DNA of 64,000 nucleotides from positions 114,154 through 178,153 of the forward strand of contig BLSF01000045.1 of the NCBI GenBank assembly GCA_012862575.1, in the 5' to 3' direction. This stretch comes from Parietichytrium sp. I65-24A. Lineage: Eukaryota > Sar > Bigyra > Thraustochytrida > Thraustochytriidae. Positions 1 through 42,231 of the stretch are shown here, piece by piece; the first letter of the stretch is position 1; the number at the start of each line of letters is the position of its first letter. Under the pieces are notes generated by a model. It saw only the letters and a program-made list of their open reading frames with translations, was not told where the DNA came from and ran no database searches. The position numbers were made by a program, and so were the translations under genes.

Positions 1-3000
1 CAACAGCTCCGGATAATGGAGCTCGGCAGCGCGCAGCAGTCGCGCACGCTCTGCCACAAAACGACGGGACTGCCCTCTCAAGTTCTGACGTAACTTTTCC
101 GACTTGGCCTCCAGATCCTGTTTCTCGGATGCCAAAGCCCCGTCATGGTCCTTTCCTCGTGAAATTTGCTTTTCGAGTTTGCGGACGTCTGAGTCAACAG
201 CGTCAATGTCGTCCTCTAGGATATGCACCTTCTCAACAAGTGTTTTGAAGGCTTCGGTGGACGGCTCCCTGTTCCCTGCGGCATAGAAAGCCTGCAAAGA
301 GTCAAACCTGCTCACTTGCTCACCGACCCATGCAAGAAACACTGGCATCTCATTTTGAACGAACGAGCGGAGAGTCTGCAGGGCCTCATCGACATCCTCT
401 TCAGGAAAGTCGGCCTCGGGGTGATCTTCCTCCAAAAAATTATACTCACCTTCTAGCGCATCGACTGCTTTCTTCAAAGACTGTTTCACTTCTTCCAGGC
501 CGTCTGCATTCGACACGACTCGAAAAGAATTTCTACTGCCGTCTCGCGATGCGGCTTTTTCAAGGCACTCCAGGGCTTCCTCGGATCTGGCTCGCCATTC
601 TCGGGAGTCGTGACGATCTTTCCACTTTTGCAGAGAGTCATGGGCATCGTGAAGCTGAACCATCGTGCTGGAGTAAACCTCTCGAAAGCTCTCAAGTTTA
701 AACTCTGCGCTATTCCTGACATTTACAGAATCATTTTCAGCTAGCTTTGCCCTCCAGCGCTGAAACTCTTCTTCGGCATTGACGAGTATTGCGTTTGCCT
801 TTTTCTCTACAACTAGGGAGACCTTTTCTCGAAGCTTCTCGCGTGCTTCATTTCGAGCTTGTTTTCGGTCGATGTTGCTCTTCACCTCCTCCTGAAGCGA
901 CTCGAAGGCCGCTTGGCTCTCATTCGCAGAATCGACAGCGGTGATAAAACCTTGAAATGCTTCTGTAGGGTCCCGCGTAAACTCGGCAGCGCAACACTCC
1001 AGCGCGGCAGCGGCTTTAGGCAACTCCACTCCGCCCTTTGCTGACTCTCGTCGCCTCGAAAGATCAGCATTCAAGCTTGCCAGCCGGGCAAAAAGCTTGA
1101 CTGACTCCGTCCAAGGCACTGGTCCCTCCGGTTGTCGTTTGCGTTTTTCCGCCTCAAGCGCAAGTTTCTTCCTTTCTTCGTCTCCTTCTTTTGCTTCCCT
1201 GCGTCGCTCTGCTTCCTCCGCTTCTTTCCTGAGTCTCTCCGCTTCGATGAACTGCTTCTTTTCAATGCGCTTTGCAGGGTCATTGTTTCGATTGATCTCT
1301 CTGTCAATTACCGCGTTCCTTACGCCAAGACTGTATAAAAACACAAGAAGTCGTCAGCCGCCAAGTCCGAGAAAGTTTAGTAGGGTGCTAAAAATTTCAC
1401 CAAACCGGTGTCAAAGTCACACGTACTCCAATTTAGTCAGCGCAGTGTTCTTCTCCAACGCGCGACCGATCGCAGATGCTCCTTCATCGCCAATGTTGTT
1501 ATTGTTGAGACTATTCCAAATTCAAAAGACGTGAAATCGTCAGCCACCAAGTCCAAGAAAGTTTAGTAGGGTGCTAAACATGCTCACCAAACCGGTGTCA
1601 AAGTCACACGTACTTCAACTCAGTCAGAGCGGTGTTCTTCTCCAACGCGCGACCGATCGCAGATGCTCCTTCATCGCCAATACCATTCCAAGAAAGACTA
1701 TTTCGTTACAGAAAGACATGAAATCGTCAGCCACAAGTCCGAGAAAGTTTAGGACGGTGCTAAATATTTTCACCAAGCCGGTGTCAAAGTCACACGTACT
1801 ACAACTTAGTCAGCGCAGTGTTCTTTTCCAACGCGCGACCGATCGCTGATGCTCCTTCAGCGCCAATTTCGTTGCCCAAGAGACTATTTTAATACGAAAA
1901 AAGACATGAAATCGTCAGCCAAAACGAACGAGAAAGGTTAGCAATGTACAAAACGTTTTCATCAAACCGGTGTCAAAGTCACACGTACTTCAACGAGGTC
2001 AGTGCAGTGTTCTTCTCCAACGCGCGACCGATCGCTGACGCTCCTTCAGCATCAATTTTATTCCCGGAAAAACTATTTCGTTACAAGAAGACATGAAGTC
2101 GTCAGCCAAAACGAACGAGAAAGGTTAGCAATGTACAAAACGTTTTCATCAAACCGGTGTCAAAGTCACACGTACTTCAACGAGGTCAGTGCAGTGTTCT
2201 TCTCCAACGCGCGACCGATCGCTGACGCTCCTTCAGCATCAATTTTATTCCCGGAAAAACTATTTCGTTACAAGAAGACATGAAGTCGTCAGCCAAAACG
2301 AACGAGAAAGGTTAGCAATGTACAAAACGTTTTCATCAAACCGGTGTCAAAGTCACACGTACTTCAACGAGGTCAGTGCAGTGTTCTTCTCCAACGCGCG
2401 ACCGATCGCTGACGCTCCTTCAGCACCAATTTGATTCCAGTAGAGACTAATTCGTTACAAGAAGACATGAAGTCGTCAGCCAAAACGAACGAGAAAGGTT
2501 AGCAATGTACAAAACGTTTTCATCAAACCGGTGTCAAAGTCACACGTACTTCAACGAGGTCAGTGCAGTGTTCTTCTCCAATGCGCGGCCGATCGCTGAT
2601 GCTCCTTCAGCGCCAATGTTGTTGTAATTAAGACTATTCCACCCAGAAGACATGAAATCGTCAGCCAACAAGTCTGAGAAACTTCAGCAAGGTTCTAAAC
2701 GTGTGTCAATGTCACACGTACTTCAAGTCAATCAGCGCAGTGTTCTTTTCCAACGCGCGACCAATCGCTGATGCTCCTTCAGCGCCAATTTTGTTGTCCA
2801 AGAGACTATTTTAATACAAAAATACATGAAGTCGTCAGCCACAAAGAACGAGAAAGTTTAACAAGGTGTTTAATTTGACGTTTCATCAAATCGGTGTTAA
2901 AGTCCCACGTACTTCAACGAGGTCAGTGCAATGTTCTTCTCCAACGCGCGACCGATTGCTGATGCTCCTTCAGCGCCAATGTTTCTATTGTAGAGACTAT

Positions 3001-3195
3001 TCCAAATTCAAAAGACATGAGAACGTCAGCCACCAAGTCCGAGAAAGTTTAGTAAAGTGCTGAACACTTTCACCAAACCGGTGTCAAAGTCACACCTCCT
3101 TTTTTCACAGATTGATGATCGCCAACTCACAGCACTTCTTGTTCCCCTCGACCGATAGCCTGAAGCACTTCGTCCAACGAGAAACACGAGCTCAT
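1..3195 (-). CDS. Modular LRR protein with C-terminal coiled coil (11 exons seen, 3' end outside window)
   Basis: I built this gene from splice signals. Exons on the minus strand are 3131-3195 (ATG at 3195, MSSCFSLDEVLQ), 2913-2996, 2722-2805, 2550-2633, 2363-2446, 2176-2259, 1989-2072, 1800-1883, 1614-1697, 1427-1510 and 1-1330. The nine middle exons are each exactly 84 nt, are flanked by phase-2 introns, and each encodes one 28-residue ribonuclease-inhibitor-type LRR with the core GAEGASAIGRALEKNTALT. Joined exons give 2151 nt, an open frame of 717 codons. The last exon starts DLGVRNAVIDREI and then becomes a charged helical/coiled-coil stretch of about 420 residues that is still open at base 1. 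No signal peptide is visible, so a cytoplasmic NLR- or RI-like scaffold is the likeliest class. A further C-terminal domain probably lies beyond the window. Gene structure is inferred from sequence; the periodicity and phase make it very likely. Confidence 0.88.
1331..2996 (-). repeat. Tandem exon-intron array (LRR units of about 172-191 bp)
   Basis: Nine head-to-tail units each hold one 84-nt LRR exon and one intron (88-107 nt, most 102-103). The introns are homologous too. They begin GTACGTGTGACTTTGACACC (one has GTACGTGGGAC), carry a conserved GGCTGACGA that fits a branch site some 30-45 nt before the acceptor, and end in AG. The unit at 1989-2175 is repeated exactly at 2176-2362 (187 bp), and the next unit is almost the same. 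The first intron (2997-3130) contains array-type sequence up to about 3097, but its donor lies elsewhere (GTGAGT at 3130), which marks the array edge. Confidence 0.92.
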
Positions 3196-3887
3196 CCTTT
3201 CTTTTCCTTTCTTCGTCAGCCTGTCAGTCCCCAGAGTTCGCGCACGTGATGCTCTGCTACTCTTTGCGTTCCTTTGCCATCTTCCCCGTTTCGAGTTTAC
3301 AGTCAAAGGCGGTTGGTTTGCTTCGTTCGCACCTCCTCGATTCTCTCCGTTGACTCAACTGTGTGAATTACCATAGGTATCTTACGGTAATCTATAGAAC
3401 CGTGACTTACAGCAACACAGCAACTCCTCACAAGAACAACTCCGTGTTGATTGAAGACATGCATTTGTAGCATTTGTATGTGTACTCAGTAGCTCGTCTT
3501 TTGTCTTGGGTCTTCTTCGTTTCGCGTATTCGTCACAGTAAGTCTGTTCACCTGCTCTTCGTCTTCTTTCGCGTTTAATTTTAAAAAAATCACTCAAAAA
3601 GTCTTTGTTTTCTTTTGGTGCCATTTTACCAAGAGAATTAATGGCCCATGTCTTGCAAGGACTGGGCTCCGCAACTCGAACTACAGAACTAGGAAAGTGC
3701 CTTTGCGTTTCCTCTCATGGACCCCTTCGACTCTATGTAGTCGCAGGAGCTATGCTGAATGGACAATGGGCTGCTTTGCTCAGGAGGCATCTAGTTGGTC
3801 CGAGTTTAAATCGAGGAACAAATTGTTGAAATTGGATAAAGCTGAGTAGTCACTTGACACGTGCAATAAGATAAAAAAGTCTAAAGA
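3196..3887. other. Intergenic, no confident gene
   Basis: This stretch lies upstream of the LRR gene and downstream of the first membrane-family gene. An ATG-initiated 80-codon reading frame sits at 3382-3624 on the minus strand (MAPKENKDFLSDFFKIKRER, basic). It resembles no family I know. It could be an alternative 5' exon of the LRR gene or chance. I see no RNA gene or repeat. Confidence 0.4.
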
Positions 3888-5363
3888 TCATGTTGGGATT
3901 CCTTGCGTCTCCGAATACAAAGTTAAACAGTACCTGTGCAAAATTCCACCTTGATTAATACCCTTCTCGAGACAGTTGCAGACATTTTGGCCAATGCACT
4001 TGGAGACATCATCTCGAAGCGCAGCTGTAGCCCCAAAGCTCAACATCTGCCCAACCACAAAGCTAAACGTCAAAAGGAAGCTGAAAGAAGGCTTTTTAAT
4101 CTGCCTTTGGAAGGTCTCCAGCAAATGCAGACCTCCTCTCTCCTCAATGTACATGCTCAAACCGTCCACGAAAATCTCTGTCAGAAGCTGAACTGCCCCC
4201 CACATCCACACAGCGTGCAACTCCGGTGTCTCATCAAAGAGATTTTCATTCATCCCATACCATGGAAATTGAGCGTAAAGAATTTTGTCTCTGAAGATGT
4301 AGAGAGCAAGCATTGAGGACGCGATCGCGGCGTACTCGAAAATCATCTCTGTCAAGACCTGAGTACCGTAAAAGCGTTTGCGAAGCTCTTGGAACTTTGC
4401 TAAGGTATTGTCTCCAATCGTAGACTTTCTTGCAGGAACAACTCTGGGTACCGAAACGCAGCGAAGCATTCTACTAAAAATGCTCCGGATCGCACGATCT
4501 CGGTTCATCACTGAAATTCGAAGGACAAACTCGCTAACACCTTGAAAGATTGTGATGAAGACAATGGCAGTCCGATCACCTATGTTTGCCATTTCCAGCC
4601 TCTGCAAAATCGCACAGATTGCTTGCAGCCATCCGACAAAGATCCAAGCCACATTTGAGTTCACGTGTACCTCCACTCCCGCTACATTTGAGTTTGTATA
4701 CATCTCCCAAGCCGTCAAGTTGCATAAAAAACGACAGAACTCTCGGGTGAGTGGGTAGAGAACGCAAAGTCTCAACACGGTGGGCCATGTCTCGTTCTCG
4801 GGGAACAAAGGTCGCGAACTTGTGACCACACCGATTCCCACTACGGTGATGAAGAGTAGATTGAGTAGATGCAGATGAAGTCTTGAACCTCTCGGAAAAT
4901 GCTGCCACATGGCGACGGACAGCGTGGCGCAGGAAAACGCCACGAAATAAGAAGCTAGCCAAAGAAACTCCTGAAACATTCCGAAGAACACCACCGCGGC
5001 CAAATACGTTGATATGCATACCAGCGTAATCTTGATGATTGGGAAATTCTTGCCAACAAACTGCCAGAACGGAACCATCAGAAAGAAGATGTTCACTGTA
5101 CCCCATGCGGGGATGCCCGAAATCTCATGGTACACATAGTCACCAAAAGTTATATTCCCGATAATTATCTCTTCTCGCGCCATGTAATTCACTGAGTATA
5201 GCTCTCCCTTTGGCACATGTATCAATGGAAGCATGAGTTCAAACTGCACATGTTTAACGTACAGGAGTGCGCAGACGCCGGGCAAGCAGAGAAACGTCGA
5301 GTACCCCGCGATCGAGACTGCAAACAGCCAGCTTCGGCCAAGTCGCGCAATCGTAGCCAACAT
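3888..5363 (-). CDS. Multi-pass membrane protein, family member 1 (unknown function)
   Basis: Single-exon gene of 491 residues. I start it at ATG 5363; the frame is open further upstream but offers no ATG. About eight or nine hydrophobic segments alternate with short loops, the first at residues 14-35. Family hallmarks shared with the genes at 5882, 7790 and 30557 are a GELYSVNY-type segment after the first membrane helix, a RPLFPE motif, QRLEMAN before a hydrophobic segment, the block DKILYAQFPWYG near residue 367, and a Cys-bearing C-terminus (CNC, then GGILHRYC and LYSETQG). The paired cysteines at the end suggest an extracytoplasmic, disulfide-bonded tail. I do not recognise the family; a transporter or receptor role would be a guess. 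It is the 3'-most of three tandem direct copies. Confidence 0.85.
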   Translation of the reverse strand: MLATIARLGRSWLFAVSIAGYSTFLCLPGVCALLYVKHVQFELMLPLIHVPKGELYSVNYMAREEIIIGNITFGDYVYHEISGIPAWGTVNIFFLMVPFWQFVGKNFPIIKITLVCISTYLAAVVFFGMFQEFLWLASYFVAFSCATLSVAMWQHFPRGSRLHLHLLNLLFITVVGIGVVTSSRPLFPENETWPTVLRLCVLYPLTREFCRFLCNLTAWEMYTNSNVAGVEVHVNSNVAWIFVGWLQAICAILQRLEMANIGDRTAIVFITIFQGVSEFVLRISVMNRDRAIRSIFSRMLRCVSVPRVVPARKSTIGDNTLAKFQELRKRFYGTQVLTEMIFEYAAIASSMLALYIFRDKILYAQFPWYGMNENLFDETPELHAVWMWGAVQLLTEIFVDGLSMYIEERGGLHLLETFQRQIKKPSFSFLLTFSFVVGQMLSFGATAALRDDVSKCIGQNVCNCLEKGINQGGILHRYCLTLYSETQGIPT

Positions 5364-5881
5364 TGAGAACGCCTCACCGAGGCGACCGGCCCTATGCAGA
5401 GTCTGGCGTGGCCCAGCCCGCCTCCGACTCGCCTCTTTCGCGGTTTCCCGCAGACACTTTGCTACAGAATACAACGCTTGCTACCATGGGGCCAAACTGG
5501 TGGCCCATCCTCCTTCCCGCCTCCCCGTCATGCAGGCGTGTTTGTAAGTATGACCTCCGAGGCTCAAGCTCTGACGTAACGGGTAAAAAAAGAAGACCCT
5601 TGGCGCAGTAGCTTACCGGTATGTTCGCCAGTATAATGGGATTTGATTACTAGCTACTAGTTTTAGAAGTTGAGCTGCACTGCAAGTGGTAAAGGAGTTT
5701 ATTGTCACAGGATACAAGGAATAGCAGCAACAGGAGCAAGCAAGACCATCAGAGAGAGGATTCGCCTCTCCCTTTGCAAGTTTTTCGAACTTCTGTAAGT
5801 GTCAGTTGCCCAACGCACGGGGAGGTTCGCTGAGCTCGATCGCTCGCAACCAAAATAAAGAGTTCGGACAAACGATCGAAA
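5364..5881. other. Spacer between tandem membrane-family genes
   Basis: About 520 bases separate the start of family member 1 from the end of member 2. The right part must hold the 3' UTR of member 2 and the left part the promoter and 5' UTR of member 1. I see no repeat, RNA gene or additional coding region. Confidence 0.5.
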
Positions 5882-7423
5882 TCAAGTTGCTAGCGCAGGA
5901 TCTGCATCAGGACGGCCTGTGTCAGGATAGAGTATGTAACAATAGCGATACAAAAGCCCGCCAGTTACGATTCCTTCGTCAATACAATTGCAAACGTTGC
6001 CACCGTTGCATGCAGCAATTTCGTCTCGATGGATCACCACTCCGCCGTAGCTCATTAGAGCCCCGATCGTAAAGAAAAAGGTGACGAGACACCAGAACCT
6101 GAGCTTCCTGGCGTGAAGCGCATATGCCTCCAGCAAAGGGAGGCCACTCTTCATTTCTGTATACATACTCGCGGCGTCTGTTACGGCTTCTGTCAGAAGT
6201 TGTGCAAAGCCCCACTTCAAAACGGGGTAAAAATGTGGGACTTCATCGAAGATATTCTCTCTGGTCCCGTACCACGGAAACTGTGCATACAGAATTTTGC
6301 TTCGAAACAAATAAAGCGCAATCATTGATGTTAGGATGGCCGCATACTCGAACACCATATCCAACAGCACCTGGATTGCAAAAAATTGCTTCCGGAGAGT
6401 TGCGAGCTCCACTCCATCGGCATTTGTTTCCTTCACGTCCAGGGGGACAATCACAGATTCTTTCGCGCTGCAGCAGATTTGTTTTAGATATCGGGTTACC
6501 ACTTCATCTCGCCTCACCAGAGTTGCGCGCATTACAAACTCAGTAAAACCTTGATAAATTACAATAAACAGAAGCGCATTACCGTCCTTCAAATTGGCCA
6601 TCTCAAGCCTCTGGAGCATGCTGGACGTTGCTTGCATCCACGCAACGAAAACCCAGGCCGAATCTCTCCGCGGATTTTGGCCACTACCGGCAATGTCTTT
6701 GCGGGTGGAGGCCTCCCATGCAGAGTGATTGCAAGCATGCCTACAAATTTCTCGTGTTGCAGGATAGAGAACACAGAACTTGATGATGGTGGCAATTTCA
6801 TCATCTTCAGGGAAGAATGGTCGAGAAAGAGTTATTGTCGAAATGCCCACTCCCGTTATTAGCCCGAGCCTCAGTAAGTGCCAATGTAGCTGCGAGCCTT
6901 TCGGAAGTGAAAGTCGCAGTACGAGCGCATGCGTGATTATTGCATATGCGGCAGTGTACTGCCTAAACCACGGGATGTCAAGGAGTGATACGAGGGAAAC
7001 GACACTGAAAAATACCAATATACATGCGGTAAGGACCCGACCTGTTGGGTAGCTCTTCCCAATGAATTCGTGGAATGGAACGATGAAGAATAGCAGGTTG
7101 ATGTTGCACCACACAGGAAAGCCTGCCATCTCCTCCAAAATGGAGTCAGCCGTGGAAGGCACCGCCAAGTTGATCTCTTCTCGGGCGGTGTAGTTGACTA
7201 AAAACAGCTCCATTCTTGACACATGAAAGAACTGCAACATGAACCCGCACTGGACATCTCTCACGTACATGAACATCAGCGTCGGCGGGATGCTGACAAA
7301 CGGCGCAAAAAGCGCTATTTTCAACGTGAGGCGCAGACTCTCACCCAATCGATTTCCCATCGAACTAGAGCAGAGGTTCGAGGGCTGGACATCGCGCGGC
7401 GCGCTGTGCTCGTAGGACTTCAT
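5882..7423 (-). CDS. Multi-pass membrane protein, family member 2 (unknown function)
   Basis: Single-exon gene of 513 residues from ATG 7423; a second in-frame ATG at 7360 (MGNRLGESL) would give 492 residues, closer to members 1 and 3. It has the same hydrophobic profile and the same landmarks: VSRMELFLVNYTAREEI after the first helix, SRPFFPEDDE, QRLEMANLKD, SKILYAQFPWYG, and the C-terminal CNC, GGLLYRYC and LYPDTG motifs. The central cytoplasmic-looking loop between the conserved VRRDEV and KQFFAIQVL segments is the most divergent part, as in the other members. Function unknown. Tandem arrangement in the same orientation points to local duplication. Confidence 0.85.
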   Translation of the reverse strand: MKSYEHSAPRDVQPSNLCSSSMGNRLGESLRLTLKIALFAPFVSIPPTLMFMYVRDVQCGFMLQFFHVSRMELFLVNYTAREEINLAVPSTADSILEEMAGFPVWCNINLLFFIVPFHEFIGKSYPTGRVLTACILVFFSVVSLVSLLDIPWFRQYTAAYAIITHALVLRLSLPKGSQLHWHLLRLGLITGVGISTITLSRPFFPEDDEIATIIKFCVLYPATREICRHACNHSAWEASTRKDIAGSGQNPRRDSAWVFVAWMQATSSMLQRLEMANLKDGNALLFIVIYQGFTEFVMRATLVRRDEVVTRYLKQICCSAKESVIVPLDVKETNADGVELATLRKQFFAIQVLLDMVFEYAAILTSMIALYLFRSKILYAQFPWYGTRENIFDEVPHFYPVLKWGFAQLLTEAVTDAASMYTEMKSGLPLLEAYALHARKLRFWCLVTFFFTIGALMSYGGVVIHRDEIAACNGGNVCNCIDEGIVTGGLLYRYCYILYPDTGRPDADPALAT

Positions 7424-7789
7424 TCGACCCCGCTCGCATGTCGTGTGCACAGGCAGCCGAAGCCCCCCAAGCGCGACCGCGCCCCTCACTCCACGTCAGC
7501 ACACCTCACCTATGCAATGTGTGCTCTGCACATCAAAAGAGAAGATTGTCCTTGCGTCAATTTTGCCGAGAGCCGTTAGTGATGAAGTGAGCTGAGCCTC
7601 TGCTGAGGGTCTATGCCGCACTCCACGGGTTGCACACCTTATAGTTGAACACCTTATGGAAATGTGTACATGAGGACACTGCAAGCCAAAACTGCCACGC
7701 TCTTATGTCCAACTCCTTCTGAAATTGGAACAAGAAAGAAGAAAGAGTTAGAAAAGTTGAAAATATTTGTGTTCAAAGGCGGAAGTGCT
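7424..7789. other. Spacer between tandem membrane-family genes
   Basis: About 370 bases between member 2 and member 3. It holds promoter and 3' UTR sequence by position only. No coding exon, repeat or RNA gene is recognisable. Confidence 0.5.
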
Positions 7790-9304
7790 CTAATAGTTCA
7801 CGCTGAACGTTTTGTTCGTGGGCTGCGGGCTCCCGGTTTCAGGGTATAATTCAAAGCAGTATCGGTAGAGAATCCCCCCAGAGGTGAGCCCATTATCCAT
7901 ACAAGCACAAACGTCCAAGTTTATGCACTGCGAAAGGTCATCGCGATAAACGGCGGCTCCCCCGTATCCGAGGACTAGGCCGACCATGAACACAAATGCT
8001 AAGATGGCGCATATCTTTGGCTTTCTTACATGCGATATGAAGACGCCATGGAGCGGAAGTCCCTCGCGCTGTTCGAGTTGCATGCTTGCGACGTCGGTTA
8101 TAACCTCAGTGACGATTTGTGCGAAGCCCCATTTCCAAACTGGGGTAAAGTCGGGTATTTGATCGAAAAGATTATCATTCTTCCCGTACCAAGGGAACTG
8201 CGCGTATAAAATTTTGTCACGAAAGATGTACAAAGCCAGCGCTGAGGTAATAATTGCAGCATACTCGGAAATCATCTCAGCCAAAACAACAATCGCATAA
8301 AAGGTTTTTCGGCGATGCCTGGCTCGATCACTCTCCTTCACCGCTGGAGTGGTCTCGGGAAAAATTTCAGACGACTTTGAGCGGCACCTGATCCATTTCC
8401 AGAGCTTGTGCAACGCGCGGTCTCTTTTAAGCAAAGTTACGCGCAGAGCGAATTCGGTTATGCCTTGATATGCTACAATGAAAACGAGAGCAGTCTCATT
8501 ATTGAGATTGGCCACTTCGAGTCTCTGCAGAAGAGCACTGACAGATTGCACCCAAGCAACGAAAACCCAGGCAACCTTGGTTTGCATCCTTAAATCTGGC
8601 CCCGCAATGTCTCTGTCTGAGTAAAACTCCCACGCCGTGAGATGGCTTCCATATCTGCCCAGTTCTCTTGCCGTCGGGTAAAGGATGCAAAACTTGACGA
8701 TGGTTGCTATGACATCATCTTCCGGGAACAATGGCCTCGAGAGAGTCACGGTTGAGATCCCGCCAATCACAATTGCCAAGAGTCGTAGTAGGTGTCTGTG
8801 AAGTTTTGAGCCTCGAGGAAAAAAGAGCCACAGTTGAAATGCCAGAGCTAAGATCGACATCACTACGGTGTACTTTCGCAAAGCCAACAGCTCAAATTTT
8901 GCCGTGACAACTGCGATCACAGCATATGTCGATGAGCAACCCAGCAAGATCTTGCCAAGCGGGAAGTGCTTCCCCGCAAAGCACCAAAACGGCACGACAA
9001 AAAAGAGAATGTTGATGATGCTCCAAACTGGAAGCCCAACAAGGTCATCTAGCAGGCGGTTCCGAAAGGTCGTCTTAGAAACGACGATTTTCTCCCGAGC
9101 TGTGTAATTTGCGGTGAAGAGCTCCTCTCGCGGAACGTCAATAAAATGCACCATGAGTCCATTCTGAACATGTTTTATATACAAAAGAGCTGCCACTGCG
9201 GGAACAGAGATGACCACAGCGAAAAGAGCAAGCTGCAACGCCAACGAGATGCTCCAAAACCGGCGTCGCCTAAACTCCATGGCGGCGGCTTGCAGCCGAG
9301 CCAT
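7790..9304 (-). CDS. Multi-pass membrane protein, family member 3 (unknown function)
   Basis: Single-exon gene of 504 residues. ATG at 9304 gives MARLQAAAMEFRRRRFW, a short basic leader just before the first membrane helix (positive-inside rule). Conserved family blocks are VPREELFTANYTAREKI, SRPLFPEDDV, QRLEVANLNN, DKILYAQFPWYG and the Cys-rich C-terminus (CACMDNG, GGILYRYC, LYPETG). Several NxT/S sites in the segment after helix 1 and near the end would suit a lumenal or extracellular face. It is the 5'-most copy of the three-gene direct array and the least extended at its N-terminus. No transporter or channel signature that I know is present, so no function is assigned. Confidence 0.86.
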   Translation of the reverse strand: MARLQAAAMEFRRRRFWSISLALQLALFAVVISVPAVAALLYIKHVQNGLMVHFIDVPREELFTANYTAREKIVVSKTTFRNRLLDDLVGLPVWSIINILFFVVPFWCFAGKHFPLGKILLGCSSTYAVIAVVTAKFELLALRKYTVVMSILALAFQLWLFFPRGSKLHRHLLRLLAIVIGGISTVTLSRPLFPEDDVIATIVKFCILYPTARELGRYGSHLTAWEFYSDRDIAGPDLRMQTKVAWVFVAWVQSVSALLQRLEVANLNNETALVFIVAYQGITEFALRVTLLKRDRALHKLWKWIRCRSKSSEIFPETTPAVKESDRARHRRKTFYAIVVLAEMISEYAAIITSALALYIFRDKILYAQFPWYGKNDNLFDQIPDFTPVWKWGFAQIVTEVITDVASMQLEQREGLPLHGVFISHVRKPKICAILAFVFMVGLVLGYGGAAVYRDDLSQCINLDVCACMDNGLTSGGILYRYCFELYPETGSPQPTNKTFSVNY

Positions 9305-10098
9305 CACGCAATGGCTCGTTGTGGGAGCCCGTCGAACCCCCCTCCAGCATCTGCGCCCGCGCCCGCGCCCGCGCCTTGCTCAGTGCTCAGTGTTCTTGCA
9401 ATTCAGAACACTCGGCCAAAATCTCATACTTCTGGTTACCAGTAGAAAGCCGCGCAACTTGAAGCCGCCTACATGGACGAGCGTTTTCCATCTTCTTTCC
9501 TCATCTCTACTTCTACTACAGCTAGCTTTCAGAGCAAGACCAGATGCAGAATCTCCCCACAGAACAACACAGCAGGGCTGTTTCTCGGAAAATTGGGATT
9601 AGTTGTAGTGTTGAGCTCACCTGAATTATTGAGCGTCTCCAGCTTCTTCATGAATACTGTGAGCCTCTCTCACAGTAAGAGGGCCGGATCTCGGCCCGGA
9701 CAATTTGGCGAGTAACGGACACCATTATAGGATTCGCTGATAGTAAAATGTAGTCTTCTTTTTACACTTGTTGCGTTCGAAAAGTCAGTCCGGCGTGTGT
9801 GCAGTAACAGCGATGAGAGTAAGGGAACGCTACACAATAGCGACGTAATTTCAGTTTCGAACATACAGAATGTCTGTTGTTACTATATGTGCTCTTCACA
9901 ATTGATTGACGTGGACGATCGTTGACTACTGCCGCGGACTCTGACACTCCATGTGGTGACACTCGCCCACTCTTTTGTCTTCAAGAATGACTGTCATGAG
10001 AGTTGACCCCAAAAAATGAAAGAAAACAAAAAGACAAAGATCTGGTGTTGCACTTTACTTACATGTGCACTGTTTGGTCATATATGGTAAGAAGAAAA
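9305..10098. other. Intergenic, no gene seen
   Basis: About 790 bases between membrane-family member 3 and the 3' end of the F-box-like gene. It contains a short GC-rich repeat of GCGCCC units (about 9352-9377) in the upstream region of member 3, and a small inverted repeat, GGGCC (9681-9685) with GGCCC (9693-9697). Neither is clearly functional. No protein exon is recognisable. Confidence 0.45.
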
Positions 10099-22426: not shown

Positions 22427-25400
22427 ATGAGGTGGCTGGCATGGCTTTGCGTAGCTTTTGGTGTTATTCACGATGTGGTGGCACAAACCAAGAGATGCCT
22501 GACCCAGCCAGATTCTGAGGATGCAAATGCCAACGCGCTCCTGGCAGCTCTTGCCGAAGAAGAGTCATGGACGCTGGATAAAGGCAAGGCTTGTCTTACA
22601 ACGTTGAATTTCACAGACTATAATCTCACGGCAGCAACAGAAGCCAGCTGCTTCCAAACGCCCTACGGCGTGTCAAATTACAGCAATCTCACGAGTACTT
22701 TTCCAAGTGGCTTTTGTTTCACAGAAGTTGCCACAGCTATGCGTTTTGGCGCGTGCATTTGCATCAAGCCTCCTACCAAGCTACCTACAATGGCGCCAAC
22801 GTTGGCGCCAAGCCAGTCGCCGAGTACTTCGCCAACGAATGCTCCCTCGTCGACTCCGACTCTCTCCCCATCGGCAACGCCAACTGAGAGCCCAACTCCA
22901 TACCGGTACGAGATGTTTGGTGTCTCTAATGTGGCGCTTAATTTTTTCCCGGGTGTAACGTTTTTCACACAGGACAGCAATCAGAGAGGTACACTGCGTG
23001 CTCTTCAAGAAAGTTCGTCGTCGTTGCAGTTCGAGATCGGCTTCCGATGTTACATGGCATTTTTACTTCGCCAAAAGCTCAATGAGTCCAACTTTGAGTA
23101 CGGGTTTGACATTCCGCTCCAGCTTCGAGAAAGCAATAGCATTGTGGATTTCATACCCGTATTCGATTTCAATCGAACCTGCGCTTCTCAAATGAGCGGC
23201 GAGAGCGAAGATTGCATCCTGAATTTCAAACTTGATAGAGGCTCGCCGTGGACGCAACAGCCGACCTTGGCTCCCAGCAGAGCTCCGACAGTTTTTCCGA
23301 CAGTGGCGCCGACATCCAACATTACTCTTGCTCCGTCGAATTTTAATGGAACTGATGGTAACACCACGTCACCGTTGAACGGCACGAATTCCAGCGACCC
23401 AATCGCCACGACCTTGGCGCCAACACAAGACCCGACTGCCGCCCCCTCTCACTCGCCTTCGCTGTCACCATCGGCGTCTCCGAGCCGTGCCCCACTGCCT
23501 CCTTTAGGCACATTGTCACCCACTGTGCCAGCAAAGTATTCTCTCAGCGATTATCTTCGCAATCTGTTTTTGGGAACTGCTGGCACCGATACGGTCTTGG
23601 CTGAGCGCGCTTATACGTATGAAACGGGCTACTGGGCATGGTCTGAGAAGATGAGGTCCCAAGATAACTTGCCCACTTTCGCGAATTTTGAGCTGTCATA
23701 CAGGACTTATCTGTACGAATATTCCGCTGCCGAGATCTCATACCTGGAAAACTTTCTAATTCAGGACTGCCCCGTGTTCGACTTTCCGCCGGTCCCGACG
23801 TCAGCCCCTGCGCCATCTGCCAAACAGGATGTGAGCAACGGAGTTGCTCTCGGGCTGTCACTAGGCGGAGCAGCCCTTGTTGTGCTCGTAATCTTGTTCT
23901 GTTTCCGACGACGTATCCTGGATAAGATTTGGTTTTACGACAATGAGCTGAGATTGAGCCAGAACAAGCGCAACCTGGACGGCGGCTCCGCAAGGCCCGA
24001 AGTCCAAGCCATATTCAAGGACCTTGAGATTGACCTTAGTCAGCTCTCACTTGGACCTGTTATTGGGCATGGTGCGAATGGTCGAATCTTCCGTGCACAA
24101 TACTGTGGATCAGATGTAGCCGTGAAAGAGCTGTTCCCAAGCATTGCTGAGAAAGAATACCATCACCAAGGGGACGAAGGACACATGGAGATCGACCCAA
24201 CCGATCAAATATGGAGGGAAGTTCGAAATTTGAGGCTATTGAGGCACCCGAATATTATTCAGCTCTACGGCTGTTCACAAACTCGCAGCGAGGATACTGG
24301 TCAGTGGAGGTTCCTGGTGGTCATGGAGCTGGCCACCTGCAGTTTGCGCGAGCTTTTGCAAAATTACGAATACGATACTATGGACAACTTGCCATTCTCC
24401 TGGAAAGAGTTCGACTTGCCAAGAAAGATTCATCTTATGAAAGAGGTTAGTGCAGGTATGGCGTATATTCACGACAGCAATATGATCCACTTTGATCTTA
24501 AGCTGGAAAACATTCTCCTCAATCAGGTCGGACAGGCAAAAATCTGTGACTTGGGAATCGCAAAGTTGCATCAAGGCCCTAACCAGACAATGCACATGAC
24601 TTTGTCAGCCATGGGAGGCACACCACCATATATGGCACCGGAGATGCTTGGCGGGGCAATGGAACAAGTAGGAAGCGCAGTGGACGTGTACGCCTTTGGA
24701 ATTGTTTTGTGGCAGATATTTCATCCTGATCTTTCTCCTCATCCGAGACAGTGGACCCTAGCAAAGCTTTTTCACGAGGTTTTGGTGTGCAACTATAGGC
24801 CTGAAATTGACGGGGAAGTGAATCCTCAGATCTCTGGTCTCATCGAGAAGTGCTGGGATGCAGACCATCGCAAAAGGCCAGCGTTCCAGGATGTCATCAG
24901 GGAGCTTGATCTTGTGTTACATTCGACCGGAAATACAAGCGCCAAGCGGCAGCGCTTCGCCTCGGAGGAGGACTTGGATTATTTGCTCAAGGTGGGCTCT
25001 AAGGCGTTCTACTGGGAGCACACCCAGCGACGCTATATTCGCTGTACAGTGAAAAAGAAGAGACACCAGGAGCAAACTCTCAATACCTTTTTTGACCTTC
25101 AGCTCGAGAAAGATGATGTCGTATTTCGTAAAATCAGTCCCGCGCTTAGAATTGTATTCAAGAGCGCTAATTCGGTCAGAAAGGGTCGTGTAGAAAGTAA
25201 GGCTTCGTCTTTCGCAACGTCAACGTCTCCCACCTCGGAATTGCGACAATTGAGTTTGAACAGCACCATGTGGAGCCAAGGAGCTCAATATAGTCCCGAA
25301 AGTTTCACTCCAGGCTCGGCAGCCCCGAGCGCGAGCGCAGCTTATGATAGTTTTGAGCGGACCTCGATGTCATGGTCATCGCCAAATTCTGTGGCCCCAT

Positions 25401-28400
25401 CGAGTAGCAAGAGTTTAGAAATGCTTGGAGGCCAACCAGCCGCCAGAGCTGATGATCCTCGCCCGTTTTCTTCGTCTCCGTCATCGCCTTCATCATCGGA
25501 CCAAGAAGACGATGACTACGATGAAGACGATGGACAGTATCGACACTTTGAAGGTCACGGGTCTGATAGCGGGGAAGAAGACGATGCCTATAGCACTTCG
25601 TATTTTACTGACAAGTCCCCCTCCAGCCGTCTTCGCAGTCACAAAGACAGCCTGAATGAGATTTTACATGATTCCCGCAAGCAGAAGATGATGCTTCGTC
25701 GCAAACAAGTATGGGAAATTTTTATGAAGGCCCCTTCCACGGAACAACGAATCCATCGCGAGTGCATTTTTAGCTCCATCTCATTGTTGGCCGCCGCACA
25801 TTTTCTCGATGCACTTTCATTCAACAAGCCACTTTTTCGAACGATGCAAGCGACAATCGCGAGAGTCGATGATCGTCTTTTGAGTAATTCGGACCTCACA
25901 ATGTTGTTCGAAGCCGACCTCAGCGGTGAAACGATCACGTCCGAGCACATTCGGGAGGGACATTCCGCAGACGCGACAAACGCGGCCGTTCAACGAGTAT
26001 TGACTGGCACTGATGGTGATAAAAGTACGGACGACATGATGCTCTTTGAGAAAGACAAAATGTCAGTCTCGAAGTTTGCGGACTTGACAGTCGACCACAC
26101 AAATTTGCGGAATGATCGGGTGCAGTGTTCAGTTGGGATCCATCTGTCTACCTTCACCTTGATGGCGGTTAAACAACACCGTCTTTCGTTCGCCTCGAAC
26201 CAGCAGCCACAAGACGTACTCCTGCAGGTCATGGCACTGTGGAATACACTACTAAAGGATGAGCCCGAATACGAGGTGAGTGGGGGTACCAGTTTGCGTC
26301 TTCTTCCAGACTATCTCGCTCCGCACCAAAAGCGCATTTCCAAGCGTTTCTTCCTGCGTTGCCCAACTTTATGTTGCTTGTATGGAGCTTTCTACGATCA
26401 GAACGAGCAGTCGTTGACCTTTTTGCACGAATATATGGATGGTGGAAGTTTGCGGGACGTCCTCGAGTCGAACGAGACCCCTGATTACACTGCACAAATA
26501 CCTGAAGAACCCGTGGTCAGTGGTGAAAACGGCGGTGAAGCTGGTGCTCCTATTCCGGTCCTCAACTTGGACGTTTCCGCAAAGGAAATTCCTCTAGCAG
26601 AGATAACGGAATCTGGGGAACCGGAGCCTCAGACCGCTGTTTCAGGTATTAGCTGCTCGGACTCACACATGCGGAATGGGCCGGACTTTGCTATTGGCCC
26701 AAACTGCATATGTGACGAAAGTGTGCTCGCCAACATTGCTCATTCCGTGCTTACTGCGCTGGACTTTCTACACAGCCATAATCTACCCCATGGGAACGTC
26801 AAGCCTTCAAATATCCTTCTCAACACCTCAGGGCAAGTGAAACTGGGAGATTTCGGCTTTCACGGGGGTCTGGCGCAAGAAGAAGAATACTTTGGAGTGG
26901 AGGGCACTTCCTTTTTGAGTCCAGAGCAGCTATCTGGAGAGGTTTTGCAAAGCAGAGCATCTGACGTATGGTCCTTCACAATGTCTCTCCTCACCGTCGC
27001 TCTCGGCCACCACCCATTTCAGAAGGCTATGTGGGAGCTGTTTTCGCATGGAAGCAACAAGTATGACATGTCCCGCTTCCTCATGGAAGAGTTTGAGGCG
27101 CACTGTTCGGAAGGCATGCAAGTGCCTGAGGAGATGGATTTTCCTCCGCCAATTGGTTACAATGCTGTGTACAGCACCTACTACAAATACTCTGCCGCAT
27201 TCAGAAACTTTGTTTCTCAGGGGCTCCAATTCGACGCAACAAAACGCTCTAGTGCGAAAGAGCTCCTGGACCACCCTTGGCTGCTTAGCTCATTAGATGA
27301 CACCATACAGATTCGAAAAGGGGTCTCGCAAGAGGTGGAGGAAAAACTTGTTTCGGATATTGCCAATACTGTAGTACAAAGGGTTATTGGATCTCTGGAG
27401 TCCAGGAGGTATCTGTGCATGCACCCACGATCGAACAATGCCACCTTGGTGCTTTTGACTGACAATGTCGATCGTCTCGCCGCCCAGCTTAATTTATCGC
27501 GGGAACTTGTCATTGAGAGCTTCATTTACAACGCCGAGCTCGCTGGTTTTAATGTTCGCTCGCCCGGCGAAGGGTACTCTCACTACGAAGAGTCCCTTCC
27601 ACCCCTTCCACCCAAATCTTTCAGATTGTCAGAGCGACATATCATGCCTGTTTCAAACGATTCTGTGGAGCTCAAGAGTGACGATGCCCAACGAGAGAAG
27701 ACTCTTGCTCCACAGGGCATAAGCTTGGAGATTCCAGAAGAAGAAATTGACGAGAAGGCCAAAAATGCGATAGACCTTGCCCTATCGACCTCGAAAAGCC
27801 TTCGCGAAATCATGGAGACTTCGGTAGAAGCTGGCCATGGCAAGAACCGCAAAGCTTTGACTCATATCCGCGCTCTCATCGTGAGACTCGAGAGCATTCT
27901 GCAAAACTCTCGATTGCGAGGGAATGGGGACGAGTTTTTGGAGCTGGACTCTCTTTTGACGCAAGCTGGAAACGTCATCAGCCTTCGTGCTGGCTCGTCC
28001 GGATCCATCATGGGAAGGAATCGGAATGGAGAGAGTGCGAGCTCTGAGAGTGAGCTCTTGCATCCCGGCAACGACAATTCCGAAGCGTTGGAATTGCAAG
28101 TCCATAGCTTGCTTGTCCAACGTAAATTGGACTTGGCAATTTTGGATGCCGTTAACGAGATAGAGCTCGTGGTTGCGACGTTAGAAGCCCGGGTAGGGGA
28201 GCCACCTCTTCCACCGCGATCGTCGTATATTGCTGCCCAGGTTGACCTCGAGTATGCCATTCAAATCTCGGAAAATATAAAGAAGAGGCATGTAGAGCAG
28301 ACATCCGAAAGCACGCCTAATTTGACGTCTGCACGAGTTGCTGCGGAATCTGAGCTGTTGAACTTTGACGGCAAGAGTACCAGCTTAACCATGGGTGTCG

Positions 28401-29320
28401 TCGAGGCGATGGACAGGCTTTCTGATTTGTTGTTAAGCGGCGCGCCACACCAACAGCATCTTCCGCTTCGCGCGACCATTGCTCCTTCGCAGCTCCAGTT
28501 TGAAGATGTTTTAGGACGTGGAGCGTTTGGAACAGTGGTTCGAGGAAAGTGGAAGGGTGACTCTGTCGCTATTAAGGTGATTCCGCGGGCCACTCCAAAT
28601 GCGGAAGGCAATTTTTCTCTTGCGTTTTCCGCGGAGCTCCATCGCTGGAAGCGCTTGGATGGGTCACCAAACATTGTGAGACTGTACGGTTTTTGCCAGG
28701 ATGTCGAAAGAATTTGTTTCGTGATGGAGCTGTGCGAGCTGTCTCTGGAAAAATACCTGTACGCCGACCGCGGGAAGAATGTGGTCAATGAGGAAATCCT
28801 CTGCAACATATGCTGTGGCATCGCGAACGGGCTCGCTTATTTGCATTCCCACTTGGTCGTACATAGGGACATAAAGCCCGGAAACGTTCTCCTCACTTCA
28901 TCCGGGCCAAATATTGCTCCATCTCAGATAAAGCTCTGTGATTTTGGGCTCAGCCTGGCAAAGACAGAGACCGTAACCACCATTCTGGACGAAGTAGCTG
29001 GAGGGACCCCGGCTTACATGGCTCCCGAGCTGGCCAGTGCTCCTGCCAAAATATCATACAAGAGCGACGTTTACTCCCTTGGCGTGTTGATGGGCGAAAT
29101 GGTGGAACGCAAGAAGCCATTCCATGGCGAGGCCCCGATGCCAATCATGATCGCAGCAATGAAAGGCTCCAGACCTGCGCTACATAATGTACAAAAATAC
29201 CCATCATGGCTAATTCAGCTCATCAAGTCTTGTTGGGCGTCAGATCGCTCTGCGCGACCTAGTGCCGTTCAGGTTGCACTCGCGTTGGAAAACCGAACCT
29301 GGCATTCGGATCTCGAGTAG
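22427..29320 (+). CDS. Receptor protein with three kinase-fold domains
   Basis: Single exon, 2297 residues from ATG 22427. Signal peptide (MRWLAWLCVAFGVIHDVVAQ), Cys-containing ectodomain with two Ser/Pro/Thr/Ala stalks (about 121-163 and 277-375, PTLAPSQSPSTSPTNAPSS type), and transmembrane helix about 472-493 (VALGLSLGGAALVVLVILF). Kinase 1 (about 538-830): K567, HFD at 688-690 instead of HRD, DLG at 708-710 instead of DFG, GGTPPYMAPE; probably active, TKL-like. An acidic Ser-rich linker follows. Domain 2 (about 1228-1621): MAP2K-like (EYMDGGSLRDVL, K1249), but HGN at 1455-1457 replaces HRD while DFG (1475) remains, so the catalytic Asp is lost and it is a likely pseudokinase. Helical region about 1770-1990. 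Kinase 3 (about 2024-2294): GRGAFGTVVRG, K2050, HRD 2146-2148, DFG 2172, complete. Likely a plasma-membrane receptor relaying signals through linked kinase modules. Confidence 0.93.
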   Translation: MRWLAWLCVAFGVIHDVVAQTKRCLTQPDSEDANANALLAALAEEESWTLDKGKACLTTLNFTDYNLTAATEASCFQTPYGVSNYSNLTSTFPSGFCFTEVATAMRFGACICIKPPTKLPTMAPTLAPSQSPSTSPTNAPSSTPTLSPSATPTESPTPYRYEMFGVSNVALNFFPGVTFFTQDSNQRGTLRALQESSSSLQFEIGFRCYMAFLLRQKLNESNFEYGFDIPLQLRESNSIVDFIPVFDFNRTCASQMSGESEDCILNFKLDRGSPWTQQPTLAPSRAPTVFPTVAPTSNITLAPSNFNGTDGNTTSPLNGTNSSDPIATTLAPTQDPTAAPSHSPSLSPSASPSRAPLPPLGTLSPTVPAKYSLSDYLRNLFLGTAGTDTVLAERAYTYETGYWAWSEKMRSQDNLPTFANFELSYRTYLYEYSAAEISYLENFLIQDCPVFDFPPVPTSAPAPSAKQDVSNGVALGLSLGGAALVVLVILFCFRRRILDKIWFYDNELRLSQNKRNLDGGSARPEVQAIFKDLEIDLSQLSLGPVIGHGANGRIFRAQYCGSDVAVKELFPSIAEKEYHHQGDEGHMEIDPTDQIWREVRNLRLLRHPNIIQLYGCSQTRSEDTGQWRFLVVMELATCSLRELLQNYEYDTMDNLPFSWKEFDLPRKIHLMKEVSAGMAYIHDSNMIHFDLKLENILLNQVGQAKICDLGIAKLHQGPNQTMHMTLSAMGGTPPYMAPEMLGGAMEQVGSAVDVYAFGIVLWQIFHPDLSPHPRQWTLAKLFHEVLVCNYRPEIDGEVNPQISGLIEKCWDADHRKRPAFQDVIRELDLVLHSTGNTSAKRQRFASEEDLDYLLKVGSKAFYWEHTQRRYIRCTVKKKRHQEQTLNTFFDLQLEKDDVVFRKISPALRIVFKSANSVRKGRVESKASSFATSTSPTSELRQLSLNSTMWSQGAQYSPESFTPGSAAPSASAAYDSFERTSMSWSSPNSVAPSSSKSLEMLGGQPAARADDPRPFSSSPSSPSSSDQEDDDYDEDDGQYRHFEGHGSDSGEEDDAYSTSYFTDKSPSSRLRSHKDSLNEILHDSRKQKMMLRRKQVWEIFMKAPSTEQRIHRECIFSSISLLAAAHFLDALSFNKPLFRTMQATIARVDDRLLSNSDLTMLFEADLSGETITSEHIREGHSADATNAAVQRVLTGTDGDKSTDDMMLFEKDKMSVSKFADLTVDHTNLRNDRVQCSVGIHLSTFTLMAVKQHRLSFASNQQPQDVLLQVMALWNTLLKDEPEYEVSGGTSLRLLPDYLAPHQKRISKRFFLRCPTLCCLYGAFYDQNEQSLTFLHEYMDGGSLRDVLESNETPDYTAQIPEEPVVSGENGGEAGAPIPVLNLDVSAKEIPLAEITESGEPEPQTAVSGISCSDSHMRNGPDFAIGPNCICDESVLANIAHSVLTALDFLHSHNLPHGNVKPSNILLNTSGQVKLGDFGFHGGLAQEEEYFGVEGTSFLSPEQLSGEVLQSRASDVWSFTMSLLTVALGHHPFQKAMWELFSHGSNKYDMSRFLMEEFEAHCSEGMQVPEEMDFPPPIGYNAVYSTYYKYSAAFRNFVSQGLQFDATKRSSAKELLDHPWLLSSLDDTIQIRKGVSQEVEEKLVSDIANTVVQRVIGSLESRRYLCMHPRSNNATLVLLTDNVDRLAAQLNLSRELVIESFIYNAELAGFNVRSPGEGYSHYEESLPPLPPKSFRLSERHIMPVSNDSVELKSDDAQREKTLAPQGISLEIPEEEIDEKAKNAIDLALSTSKSLREIMETSVEAGHGKNRKALTHIRALIVRLESILQNSRLRGNGDEFLELDSLLTQAGNVISLRAGSSGSIMGRNRNGESASSESELLHPGNDNSEALELQVHSLLVQRKLDLAILDAVNEIELVVATLEARVGEPPLPPRSSYIAAQVDLEYAIQISENIKKRHVEQTSESTPNLTSARVAAESELLNFDGKSTSLTMGVVEAMDRLSDLLLSGAPHQQHLPLRATIAPSQLQFEDVLGRGAFGTVVRGKWKGDSVAIKVIPRATPNAEGNFSLAFSAELHRWKRLDGSPNIVRLYGFCQDVERICFVMELCELSLEKYLYADRGKNVVNEEILCNICCGIANGLAYLHSHLVVHRDIKPGNVLLTSSGPNIAPSQIKLCDFGLSLAKTETVTTILDEVAGGTPAYMAPELASAPAKISYKSDVYSLGVLMGEMVERKKPFHGEAPMPIMIAAMKGSRPALHNVQKYPSWLIQLIKSCWASDRSARPSAVQVALALENRTWHSDLE

Positions 29321-30556
29321 CTCATGTAGTTCAAGTGGTCGACAGAACACTTGTCTTCATTTGCATTTAGGAATGCTGTCATAGTTTTTATAATATCAAT
29401 GTTTGTATTGTTGTCATTGTTCGTTTCCTTCTTACAGTGGGAGAAAACCGTTTGTTCGTTGAGGTAAATCCGCACCGGTATTTCTCAACACGAGAACACA
29501 GGAACACAGGAACACAGGAACACAGGAACACGAGAACGCGGGCTTGGCCCATTCTCCCATTCAATAGTAAGGTGAACAAACGGCTCGCTCTGGCTCCGAC
29601 GAGTGGCAGTGGCAGGCAGGTTTCCTTCTCGCCGAAGTGGCCAGCCACGAAAGGTGCTGTCCAAACTTGAGAACGTGATGCATCACCGCGGGCTAGAGCC
29701 GCCTTCTCCAGGTAGCAGTGAAGACCAAAACGACTCTTCCCGGACTGTGCTTTTATAATTGCTCCACTCGACTGATCAAGAAAGCATTGATTGTTTTTGA
29801 TTGGCTTCTCAATCAGTCAAACTTGAAGTACTCAGTACATGTACTACCGGGACAGGTATCTCAGTACCACTTGGCCGATTTGCCCGTTGCTGTACTTGCA
29901 GCCACGGTCTTGAAACAATTGAACTGACAGGACATGGCATTGGCAGAATGTACATGTAAATACATTTGATTTGCTCTGACTGTCCTTCTTGCTTCCGAGC
30001 TGCAACCTAGTTGATTCGCGTCAAATGGACGGACGACTTGATGGAGTACGCCCGCACGTGCTACTGTTGCTACTGAGTGCAAGTTTGCTTTCTTGGTGAT
30101 CCGGGCGACGGAAGACTTTGAGCTGTGAGCTGGACTGATGTTGTCTGAAGTTTGACCAACCATTCCGATTGCGACGCGACGGCTAAGTCATGCGTGAGGC
30201 AACGAGACCCTTCAGACTTGGAGATAGACGATGAAAGGATGGGCCACGTCACCAGTGCTTTCTTTTCTTGAGAGAAGAATGCCGTGCTATCTAGTTTTCT
30301 CCACCAGTGTACACTTGCGCTCTCGCATTCAAGTTCAAGATTGGTGTAACGGTGATGGAGTTTATTCTGTCTCCCAATAAGTATTGATGTGATTGACCGT
30401 GAAATGGGTACCTGCCCTGGTAGGCGGTCCAGTGCAAATGCCAGTGCACGATGTCCAGCTTCTCGTCGTCATTGAGATTTGGATGGTTCATCCAAAGTTC
30501 GCTCCGGCAAGAGGACCTCCGAGCCAGACAAGGCCAGGACGGCCGTCCCTGGACGG
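29321..30556. other. Intergenic, no gene seen
   Basis: About 1.2 kb between the kinase gene and membrane-family member 4. It includes an 8-base minisatellite, GAACACAG, at about 29486-29537 (four exact copies flanked by GAACACGA variants). The frame of member 4 is open upstream to about 30479 but has no ATG there. No RNA gene recognised. Confidence 0.5.
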
Positions 30557-40895: not shown

Positions 40896-42231
40896 GAAAA
40901 AAAACACTGTTATTTTTTTCGCGATCGCCCCTGGGCTTGAAGCTATGAACGACAATTTTGACAAACTCCTCGCTCCGTTTTTCTATTCTATTCTTTTCTT
41001 CGAACCTCGCGCATTCTTCCTCGTTGCCGGCATTATCCGCTCGATCCGCTGCAACTGCAAGCTCCGTAGCGGCCAGCTCGAAAGTGTCAGCGGCCTTGGT
41101 AATCGTCGTTGGCCTTTTCCCGTCCAGGAGAGCCATATTGCAGTGTCACTCGGCACAAAAAAGCATCATCGAATCGAGTGCAGATGTTGCGAAGAGAGCG
41201 CGAGAGAGAGTCCGCGACGAGTAGCTTCCCAATATTCGTTGCCCAGCACTTGCCTCTGAGCCCAAGAAAAGGCGTGCGACACACCGGCCTAGCATTCAGC
41301 ACCGCGGCCGATGCGAAATTATTGCACGGTCTTGTCGATCGGCCGGCTGGCTAATGAATGCGAGGGCGGCGGCATCAACTTCATCAACTTGGACCTCTTG
41401 CACGAAGGGCCCATCGGACTGACAGGCAGATAGATGGATGATCGTCGCGGGTGGCGAAGTTAAGTATTTCAAAGCCAAGTTAATAAGAAAACGACGATGA
41501 AGATTTTTGGCATATTCCCACTTGCAGTTCAACATTTTCTTATTCTTTGTTTATCTTCTGTTCTGTGTGAAAACAAAAATGTTCATTGAGAATGAAAGTT
41601 GGAAAAGAAAAGCCGAGAGGCATGACTCTTATGTGTTTTGATATGTGGCTGCGAGTACCAAGTAAGCTTATCAGCCAAGTTCAGTTGAAATGAAATGAGA
41701 AGACGGGAAATTGCGTGCATGCATGCCATACAGCCATAAAAATACAACATTCTGTGATATCCATCACATTAACTACATCTCCATGTAATGTCCAATGCCC
41801 AGCACTAGCGACTGACCTAATCTAGATCACCATTCCAACCCCACATCCAGCAATCACATGCATTTCGTATTTTAATCTCCATGGGCAAATCAACAAGCTC
41901 TACTTGCACACACGTTCCTCCTAATCTACCCTATAGCGGCTACGCTACTCTTACTCCAACTCCTGCATCAAGGGCTAGCGTGGCATGGTCGACTCCTAGA
42001 CAGCAAGTTTGGCGGAAGAGAGAGAGAGAGAGAATGAGAGAGAGAAGACGGCGCAAAAGACGCGGCCGAGGGACGGTGGGAGAGGGTCTTCGAGAGAGAG
42101 AAAGAATAGAGAAAGAAAGAAAGAAAGAGAGAGAGAGAAAGAAAGAGAGAGAGAGGAGGAGGTAGCGCGCGGAGAAGTGTGTGGGTTGGGATGCAAGGTG
42201 GAGCAGCGGCACAGAGAATATCGAAGGCGAG
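40896..42231. other. Intergenic, no gene seen
   Basis: About 1.3 kb between the LRR membrane protein and sulfatase 1. An open frame in another phase continues past 40895 but is a shadow of the LRR gene. The last 220 bases are the purine tract listed separately. I found no upstream exon with a signal peptide for sulfatase 1. Confidence 0.45.
42014..42165 (+). repeat. Purine-rich (GA/GAAA)n tract upstream of sulfatase 1
   Basis: About 150 bases of AGAGAG and GAAAGA units with few pyrimidines, on the sense strand, ending some 67 bases before ATG 42232. Confidence 0.9.

Follow-up and report, generated by a model that had tools for sequence, protein, structure and literature searches.

Arrays of single-repeat, phase-2 LRR exons in Parietichytrium sp. 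I65-24A form a genome-wide family and may encode modular intracellular receptors

The window analyzed here is a 64,000-nucleotide stretch of contig BLSF01000045.1 (C45:114154-178153) from the 42.5-Mb assembly of Parietichytrium sp. I65-24A. At its start, within positions 1-3200 of the minus strand, lies a gene built on leucine-rich repeats (LRRs), for which an earlier sequence-only reading had given coordinates and lengths that proved correct. The first exon (3131-3195), recognized by its open frame, splice sites and look-alikes in sister arrays, encodes MSSCFSLDEVLQAIGRGEQEV plus 2 nt and ends in phase 2 at a GTGAGT donor. Nine LRR exons follow at 2913-2996, 2722-2805, 2550-2633, 2363-2446 (the fourth, with the patch LYWNQIG), 2176-2259, 1989-2072, 1800-1883, 1614-1697 and 1427-1510, and their splice sites and spliced frame bear out the claim that each is 84 nt long, lies between phase-2 introns and encodes one 28-residue LRR. 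All nine are preceded by AG, followed by GTACGTG and end in phase 2; the introns between them measure 107, 88, 103, 103, 103, 105, 102 and 103 nt, and the two outer introns of the array 134 and 96 nt. When 3195-3131, the nine modules and 1330-1 are joined across ten predicted junctions, a frame of 717 amino acids with no stops results, and we infer that the gene is spliced in this manner in vivo. TRF treats exon plus intron as a single 187-bp unit present in 9.5 copies from 1338 to 3095, a tandem array also recovered by repeat search. LRR exons 5 and 6 (2259-2176 and 2072-1989) are identical over their whole length and over 120 nt of flanking sequence, which is a recent tandem duplication and supports the proposal that whole units can be gained. 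Look-alikes of exon 1 with a phase-2 donor were counted by eye in 13 of the 24 sister arrays having enough upstream sequence, and for the remaining 11 none was listed or found by a simple script. In several sisters a cap-like exon comes second, and the present gene seems to have no counterpart of it.

The repeats belong to the ribonuclease inhibitor (RI) or NLR type, as first suggested: Pfam LRR_6 matches at 5e-53, PDB matches include ribonuclease inhibitor (4.2e-26) and NLRPs, and each unit has 28 residues, within the 28-29-residue repeat with LxxLxLxxNxI and helix that defines the RI-like class. At the sequence level, the array is of the kind described from Tetrahymena and brown algae, with tandem exons of equal length, one LRR in each, and phase-2 introns.

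The remainder of the window holds genes of several other kinds. A family of membrane-looking proteins of about 500 amino acids, alike by eye, occurs on both sides of the LRR gene, with members at 3888-5474 (-), 5882-7489 (-), 7790-9307 (-) and 30479-32107 (+) and another in L035, the stretch in which the LRR gene continues; the L035 member shares 34% identity with that at 3888-5474, and neither of the two members tested has a Pfam match. A single open frame of 2297 amino acids at 22427-29320 (+) contains three protein kinase stretches. The 1292-amino-acid protein encoded at 37017-40895 (+) carries many LRRs of other Pfam types in an uninterrupted frame, unlike the exon-per-LRR family. Two adjacent sulfatase-like genes lie at 42181-44328 and 45434-47438 (+), the second divided between two frames close to an ambiguous base; both have a CGPSR motif, which we take to be a sulfatase-like mark. 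A beta-tubulin-like pair in opposite orientation (53536-54900, minus; 57012-58367, plus), almost alike by eye, has an N stretch between its members.

The last exon of the LRR gene enters the window with its start only (1-1330, minus strand). This part is charged and, by eye, coiled-coil-like, and no Pfam family scored above cut-off in it. Its nature emerges from the sister arrays. Behind five of them (L009, L013, L025, L027 and L031) runs a long open frame of 898-1044 amino acids with pairwise identities of 47-73%, that of L025 stopping short of its end and continuing in another frame; the front of this sister frame aligns with window positions 1-1353 at 70% identity, ahead of the kinase. A Pfam protein kinase was found in all four sister C-termini scanned (L009, L013, L027 and L031), with HCDLKPHN and GDFDG motifs in common and IRAK4 as the best PDB match. 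At the end of the frame, a C3HC4 ring is accompanied by another Cys/His set of IBR-like character, and the four aligned sequences hold two sets of eight invariant Cys/His residues. These RING/IBR-like ends have no Pfam RING or IBR match, resemble PDB entries weakly (RBCK1, 0.021; TRIM21, 0.07) and show no third ring of the RING1-IBR-RING2 order. In L035 the present gene has a 143-amino-acid RING/IBR-like C-terminal piece with 82% identity to the sister frame end. Between the two parts, a gap of 1045 N (C45:113109-114153) starts at the window edge; at the corresponding place, three sisters carry 1173-1176 nt in which the kinase is contained. The gene is thus most likely organized as LRR, coiled-coil-like stretch, kinase and RING/IBR-like end, with its own kinase, predicted from the sisters, falling in the gap. 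The coiled coil that had been named as the partner domain is present as a coiled-coil-like stretch, and the description was too narrow, since in the sisters this stretch is the front of a kinase and RING/IBR-like part.

A second kind of C-terminus exists among the sisters. In L018, LRRs are joined to ROC, COR and TIR in a single frame (Pfam Roc, COR-A and TIR_2), and in L010 the same three Pfam families follow the LRRs over two frames. Genome-wide, COR-A was matched 11 times, with 10 of the matches above cut-off, and linkage to an array was examined for L010 and L018. For a PUFA-synthase model, by contrast, no match scored above cut-off. The present gene, whose C-terminal parts align with the first kind of sister frame, has no ROC-COR behind its array. 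Pfam scans of the part of this gene inside the window and of seven sister frames found no NACHT or NB-ARC, and one scan confirmed no viral relatives of the C-terminal domain. By eye, neither signal peptide nor membrane segment was seen, and the encoded protein is presumably intracellular.

A search of the genome for other arrays of 84-nt phase-2 exons, as the sequence-only reading had advised, uncovered a large family rather than a lone gene. The LRR core motif (≤2 mismatches) has 622 genome matches (353 + 269), and the reversed control has 0; together with the exact splice spacing, this control rules out a chance or non-coding tandem repeat. Among the matches listed, no fewer than 47 distinct array sites can be counted, spread over 37 contigs. 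Among 146 modules found by the core motif alone, AG and GT stand exactly 84 nt apart in 127 without any fitting, and in 5 of the 146 the 5' splice site reads GC rather than GT. GC 84 nt past the AG is seen, for example, in two modules of L029 (0-based starts 4930 and 5668, plus strand). A profile search covering this gene and 26 other stretches, 27 loci in all, identified 280 modules, 272 of them spliceable and 243 of these 84 nt long; this search tried length 84 first, which biases its 84-nt share upward, so that 127 of 146 is the unfitted count. Stops are absent from 241 of the 242 N-free 84-nt modules and from all 190 junction codons. Site statistics leave out the 8 of 280 modules without splice sites and, from the 272, 29 of other lengths, one with an N and one with a stop; intron statistics use the 208 units whose following intron is 70-130 nt. 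The loci were chosen by matches to the unit of this gene and may favor young arrays. Older-looking arrays of 84-nt exons occur in L011, L019, L028 and L032, where units within a locus differ by 35-40% and the fetched part shows no long kinase-type or ROC-type frame behind the array. Eight arrays (L012, L017, L023, L024, L027, L029, L033 and L034) are about 5 kb or less from the end of their contig; no telomere-like repeats were present at the array-bearing contig ends examined, so assembly breaks are likelier than telomeres.

Variation within the module is sharply localized. Across the 241 stop-free modules, entropy is highest at codons 2, 3 and 5 (3.66, 3.83 and 3.50 bits), followed by codon 26 (2.89), the junction residue (2.55) and codon 8 (2.35), with 0.14-1.71 bits at the remaining codons. 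Apart from codon 8, we take the variable codons to be the x positions of LxxLxLxxNxI, the concave strand of RI-type LRRs, by consensus rather than from a model. Most amino-acid variation is therefore found next to the intron, at residues presumed to line the concave face, and because the intron cuts the concave strand, each strand is encoded jointly by the tail of an exon and the head of its successor. At codons 2, 3, 5 and 26, nucleotide diversity is 0.65 at positions 1 and 2 and 0.70 at position 3, against 0.33 in introns and 0.15 (positions 1 and 2) and 0.27 (position 3) in the other codons except 8. Relative to random codons of intron composition, codons 2, 3 and 5 show an enrichment of E, K, Q and N and a depletion of I, L and V (0.07-0.14 of expectation), a composition that fits an exposed surface, as expected. 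The pN/pS ratio at codons 2, 3, 5 and 26 is 0.88-0.90 across all module pairs and does not exceed 1, these comparisons being saturated.

Difference at the variable sites climbs only modestly with intron distance: it is already 0.36 at an intron distance of 0.4% (7 pairs) and reaches 0.53 at 4% (17 pairs), 0.62 at 13% and 0.67 at 45%. In 37 close pairs, with each module used once and a flank difference of at most 0.12, the variable sites differ by 0.465, the flanking introns by 0.077 and the framework third positions by 0.090. The variable sites are the more different in 32 of the 37, and the JC-corrected variable/flank ratio is 8.9 (bootstrap 6.6-12.2), which is driven mainly by cross-locus pairs and is no ratio of mutation rates. 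Changes at 2-3 bases account for 74 of 102 changed variable codons versus 7 of 153 framework codons, and transitions to transversions stand at 89:124 in variable codons versus 106:54 in the framework. Where a variable codon keeps its residue, synonymous change is ordinary (6/52 vs 70/731). Separation of the 37 pairs by locus clarifies the pattern. Same-locus pairs number 16, with a mean flank difference of 0.071; 11 of them differ by 0-2 of the 9 patch nucleotides and 5 by 6-8, and within a locus retention of the patch predominates even where the flanks have diverged by 9-11%. The 21 cross-locus pairs (mean flank difference 0.081) differ by 6-8 patch nucleotides in 16 cases, by 5 in one and by 2-3 in four. 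Patches are thus inherited with true duplicates rather than mutating wildly. Rapid patch change is not supported by this split, and we set aside fast point mutation or a strong rate acceleration of the patches in view of the same-locus duplicates, most of which retain theirs. Since patches are mostly unrelated between loci and mostly kept within them, recombination, rather than fast mutation, seems to uncouple patch from framework, perhaps by homogenization of framework and introns, by block exchange of patches, or by both. A five-module block duplication in L015 has a mild excess at variable sites (6/50, with 24/481 in introns and 2/110 at framework third positions).

The sequence-only reading had also raised exon shuffling as a source of diversity, and here the evidence divides. 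Judged by framework plus intron, 70% of the 208 units have their closest module in a different locus and 30% in their own (5% expected), 58 of the 62 same-locus neighbors being 1-5 units apart. Framework and introns do resemble one another between loci, but simple shuffling of intact exons between loci is not what the data show, as most patches there are unrelated. We likewise reject the idea that all of the variety comes from shuffling whole exons, with 70% of nearest modules in another locus yet only 5 pairs of identical 12-nt patches between loci (0.8 expected, highest shuffle also 5). Near-identical patches common to different loci number 66 versus 33 by shuffling, only about twice the expectation and from pairs that are not independent (L014 has three identical modules); collapsing identical exons leaves 55 versus 29, with a highest shuffle of 53. 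The LYWNQIG patch of LRR exon 4 recurs on contig C98 with one mismatch in 24 nt, between clearly diverged introns; an additional 1.2-kb stretch enters this comparison and the count of 66. For the FSGNKID patch of LRR exons 5 and 6, no other copy within 2 mismatches is present in the assembled genome.

On balance, we consider it probable, though by no means assured, that these genes form a family of modular intracellular receptors with a concave face for varied ligands and a germ-line repertoire generated by recombination. The protein of the present gene would combine a solenoid of single-exon RI-type LRRs with a coiled-coil-like stretch and, as in the sisters, a protein kinase and RING/IBR-like end, and the genome-wide family joins such arrays to ROC-COR-TIR as well. 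The concave face of the solenoid, presumably under selection, would bind a range of ligands, of which non-self or effector proteins are the likeliest, and binding would switch on the kinase/ubiquitin-ligase end or the GTPase/TIR end. The repertoire would be made in the germ line as phase-2 exon-plus-intron units are duplicated or lost via unequal exchange. Recombination would hold the introns and the LRR framework similar from locus to locus, and the variable patches next to the intron would remain diverse and be reassorted relative to the framework. With the intron placed within what is presumed to be the concave beta-strand, exchanges at introns would create novel binding strands. The present gene may in this way serve as a diversifying recognition gene.

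The strongest alternative, which we regard as distinctly possible though rather unlikely, is that the arrays are LRR genes evolving in concert and serving a function outside immunity (scaffolding, trafficking, self-recognition or mating), in which gene conversion homogenizes framework and introns and the patches escape, serving many old, fixed partners. The separation of the close pairs by locus strengthens this account and weakens the receptor reading, its bolder version and the mutator account, both given below. In favor of concerted evolution, the framework and introns of different loci resemble one another, duplicates within a locus mostly retain their patches, variable codons with an unchanged residue have an ordinary level of synonymous change, and pN/pS stays below 1 across all pairs. 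Sets of kinase with RING/IBR and of ROC-COR-TIR are, however, typical of signaling and defense proteins, which argues against a non-immune role, as does the match of the variable residues to consensus concave positions with the chemistry of a binding surface. That many of the arrays are not genes but decaying repeats or assembly artefacts is very unlikely; N stretches occurring within some of them, the proximity of others to contig ends, stops in several matches to the C-terminal part and the profile matches lacking splice sites would be consistent with decay or artefact, but the 84-nt modules are almost all stop-free with exact splice spacing, exon 1 look-alikes are present, and open C-termini of 853-1044 amino acids stand behind six arrays. 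Most improbable is a dedicated mutator, by hypermutation or reverse transcription, acting on codons 2, 3, 5 and 26, as the steep local peak of variation between conserved bases, the multi-base codon changes with their skewed transition:transversion balance and the one patch without an assembled donor are set against same-locus patches that mostly persist at up to 11% flank divergence and a normal synonymous rate at same-residue codons. A pattern targeted to A, like that of diversity-generating retroelements, was not seen, as all three codon positions vary.

If the modular receptor reading is right, one genome joins such arrays to two immune-type ends, one of kinase and RING/IBR-like and one of ROC-COR-TIR, and the family is an apparently separate case, besides ciliates and brown algae, of single-LRR phase-2 exons multiplied into a receptor-like family. 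Reassortment of receptor repertoires in protists would then become directly testable by comparing strains. A bolder version, to which we give little credence, is a modular, anticipatory immune-type system: a protist library of several hundred single-LRR modules whose concave patches are actively reassorted within and between loci and across two signaling backbones, fast enough, perhaps mitotically too, for strain-specific repertoires.

Several known systems share parts of this plan. Lamprey variable lymphocyte receptors likewise have modular LRR units and variable residues on the LRR concave face; they are extracellular and assembled somatically from cassettes, unlike the present family as read from the genome. 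The vertebrate NLRC family also has 84-nt phase-2 exons, but its few genes have NACHT before the LRRs, a domain that our Pfam scans did not find here. The available account of human NLRC5 describes RI-like LRRs of 28-29 residues, mostly one per exon, with 36 typical LRRs predicted in 43 exons (PMC3848420). A close precedent that had been missing from the sequence-only reading is Tetrahymena, for which nearly 50,000 LRR exons of exactly 90 bp, mostly with phase-2 introns, are described (PMC6564038). According to that description, the likeness covers very many single-LRR exons of one length, an extreme phase-2 bias, units of intron plus exon, and tandem expansion with genome-wide ectopic exchange; the differences are 90 bp instead of 84 and a ciliate with germline and somatic nuclei (PMC6564038). 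The brown-algal LRR-ROCO parallel that was drawn at the outset stands, and is direct since some arrays end in ROC-COR-TIR. As reported for the brown-algal genes, there is one LRR per phase-2 exon and a ROC-COR fusion, seen here in sisters, with exons of 72 bp, LRRs of 23 residues and four concave sites under positive selection, in contrast to the 84-bp, RI-type exons described here (PMC11378527). Their reported architecture is LRR-ROC-COR, with small groups adding a peptidase or DUF900, whereas kinase plus RING/IBR-like or ROC-COR-TIR ends are found here (PMC11378527). Searches of open-licence papers turned up no account of 84-nt phase-2 LRR arrays in a protist of this sort. The present family has a plan common to the known systems and differs from them in exon length, in LRR class relative to the algae, and in its signaling ends.
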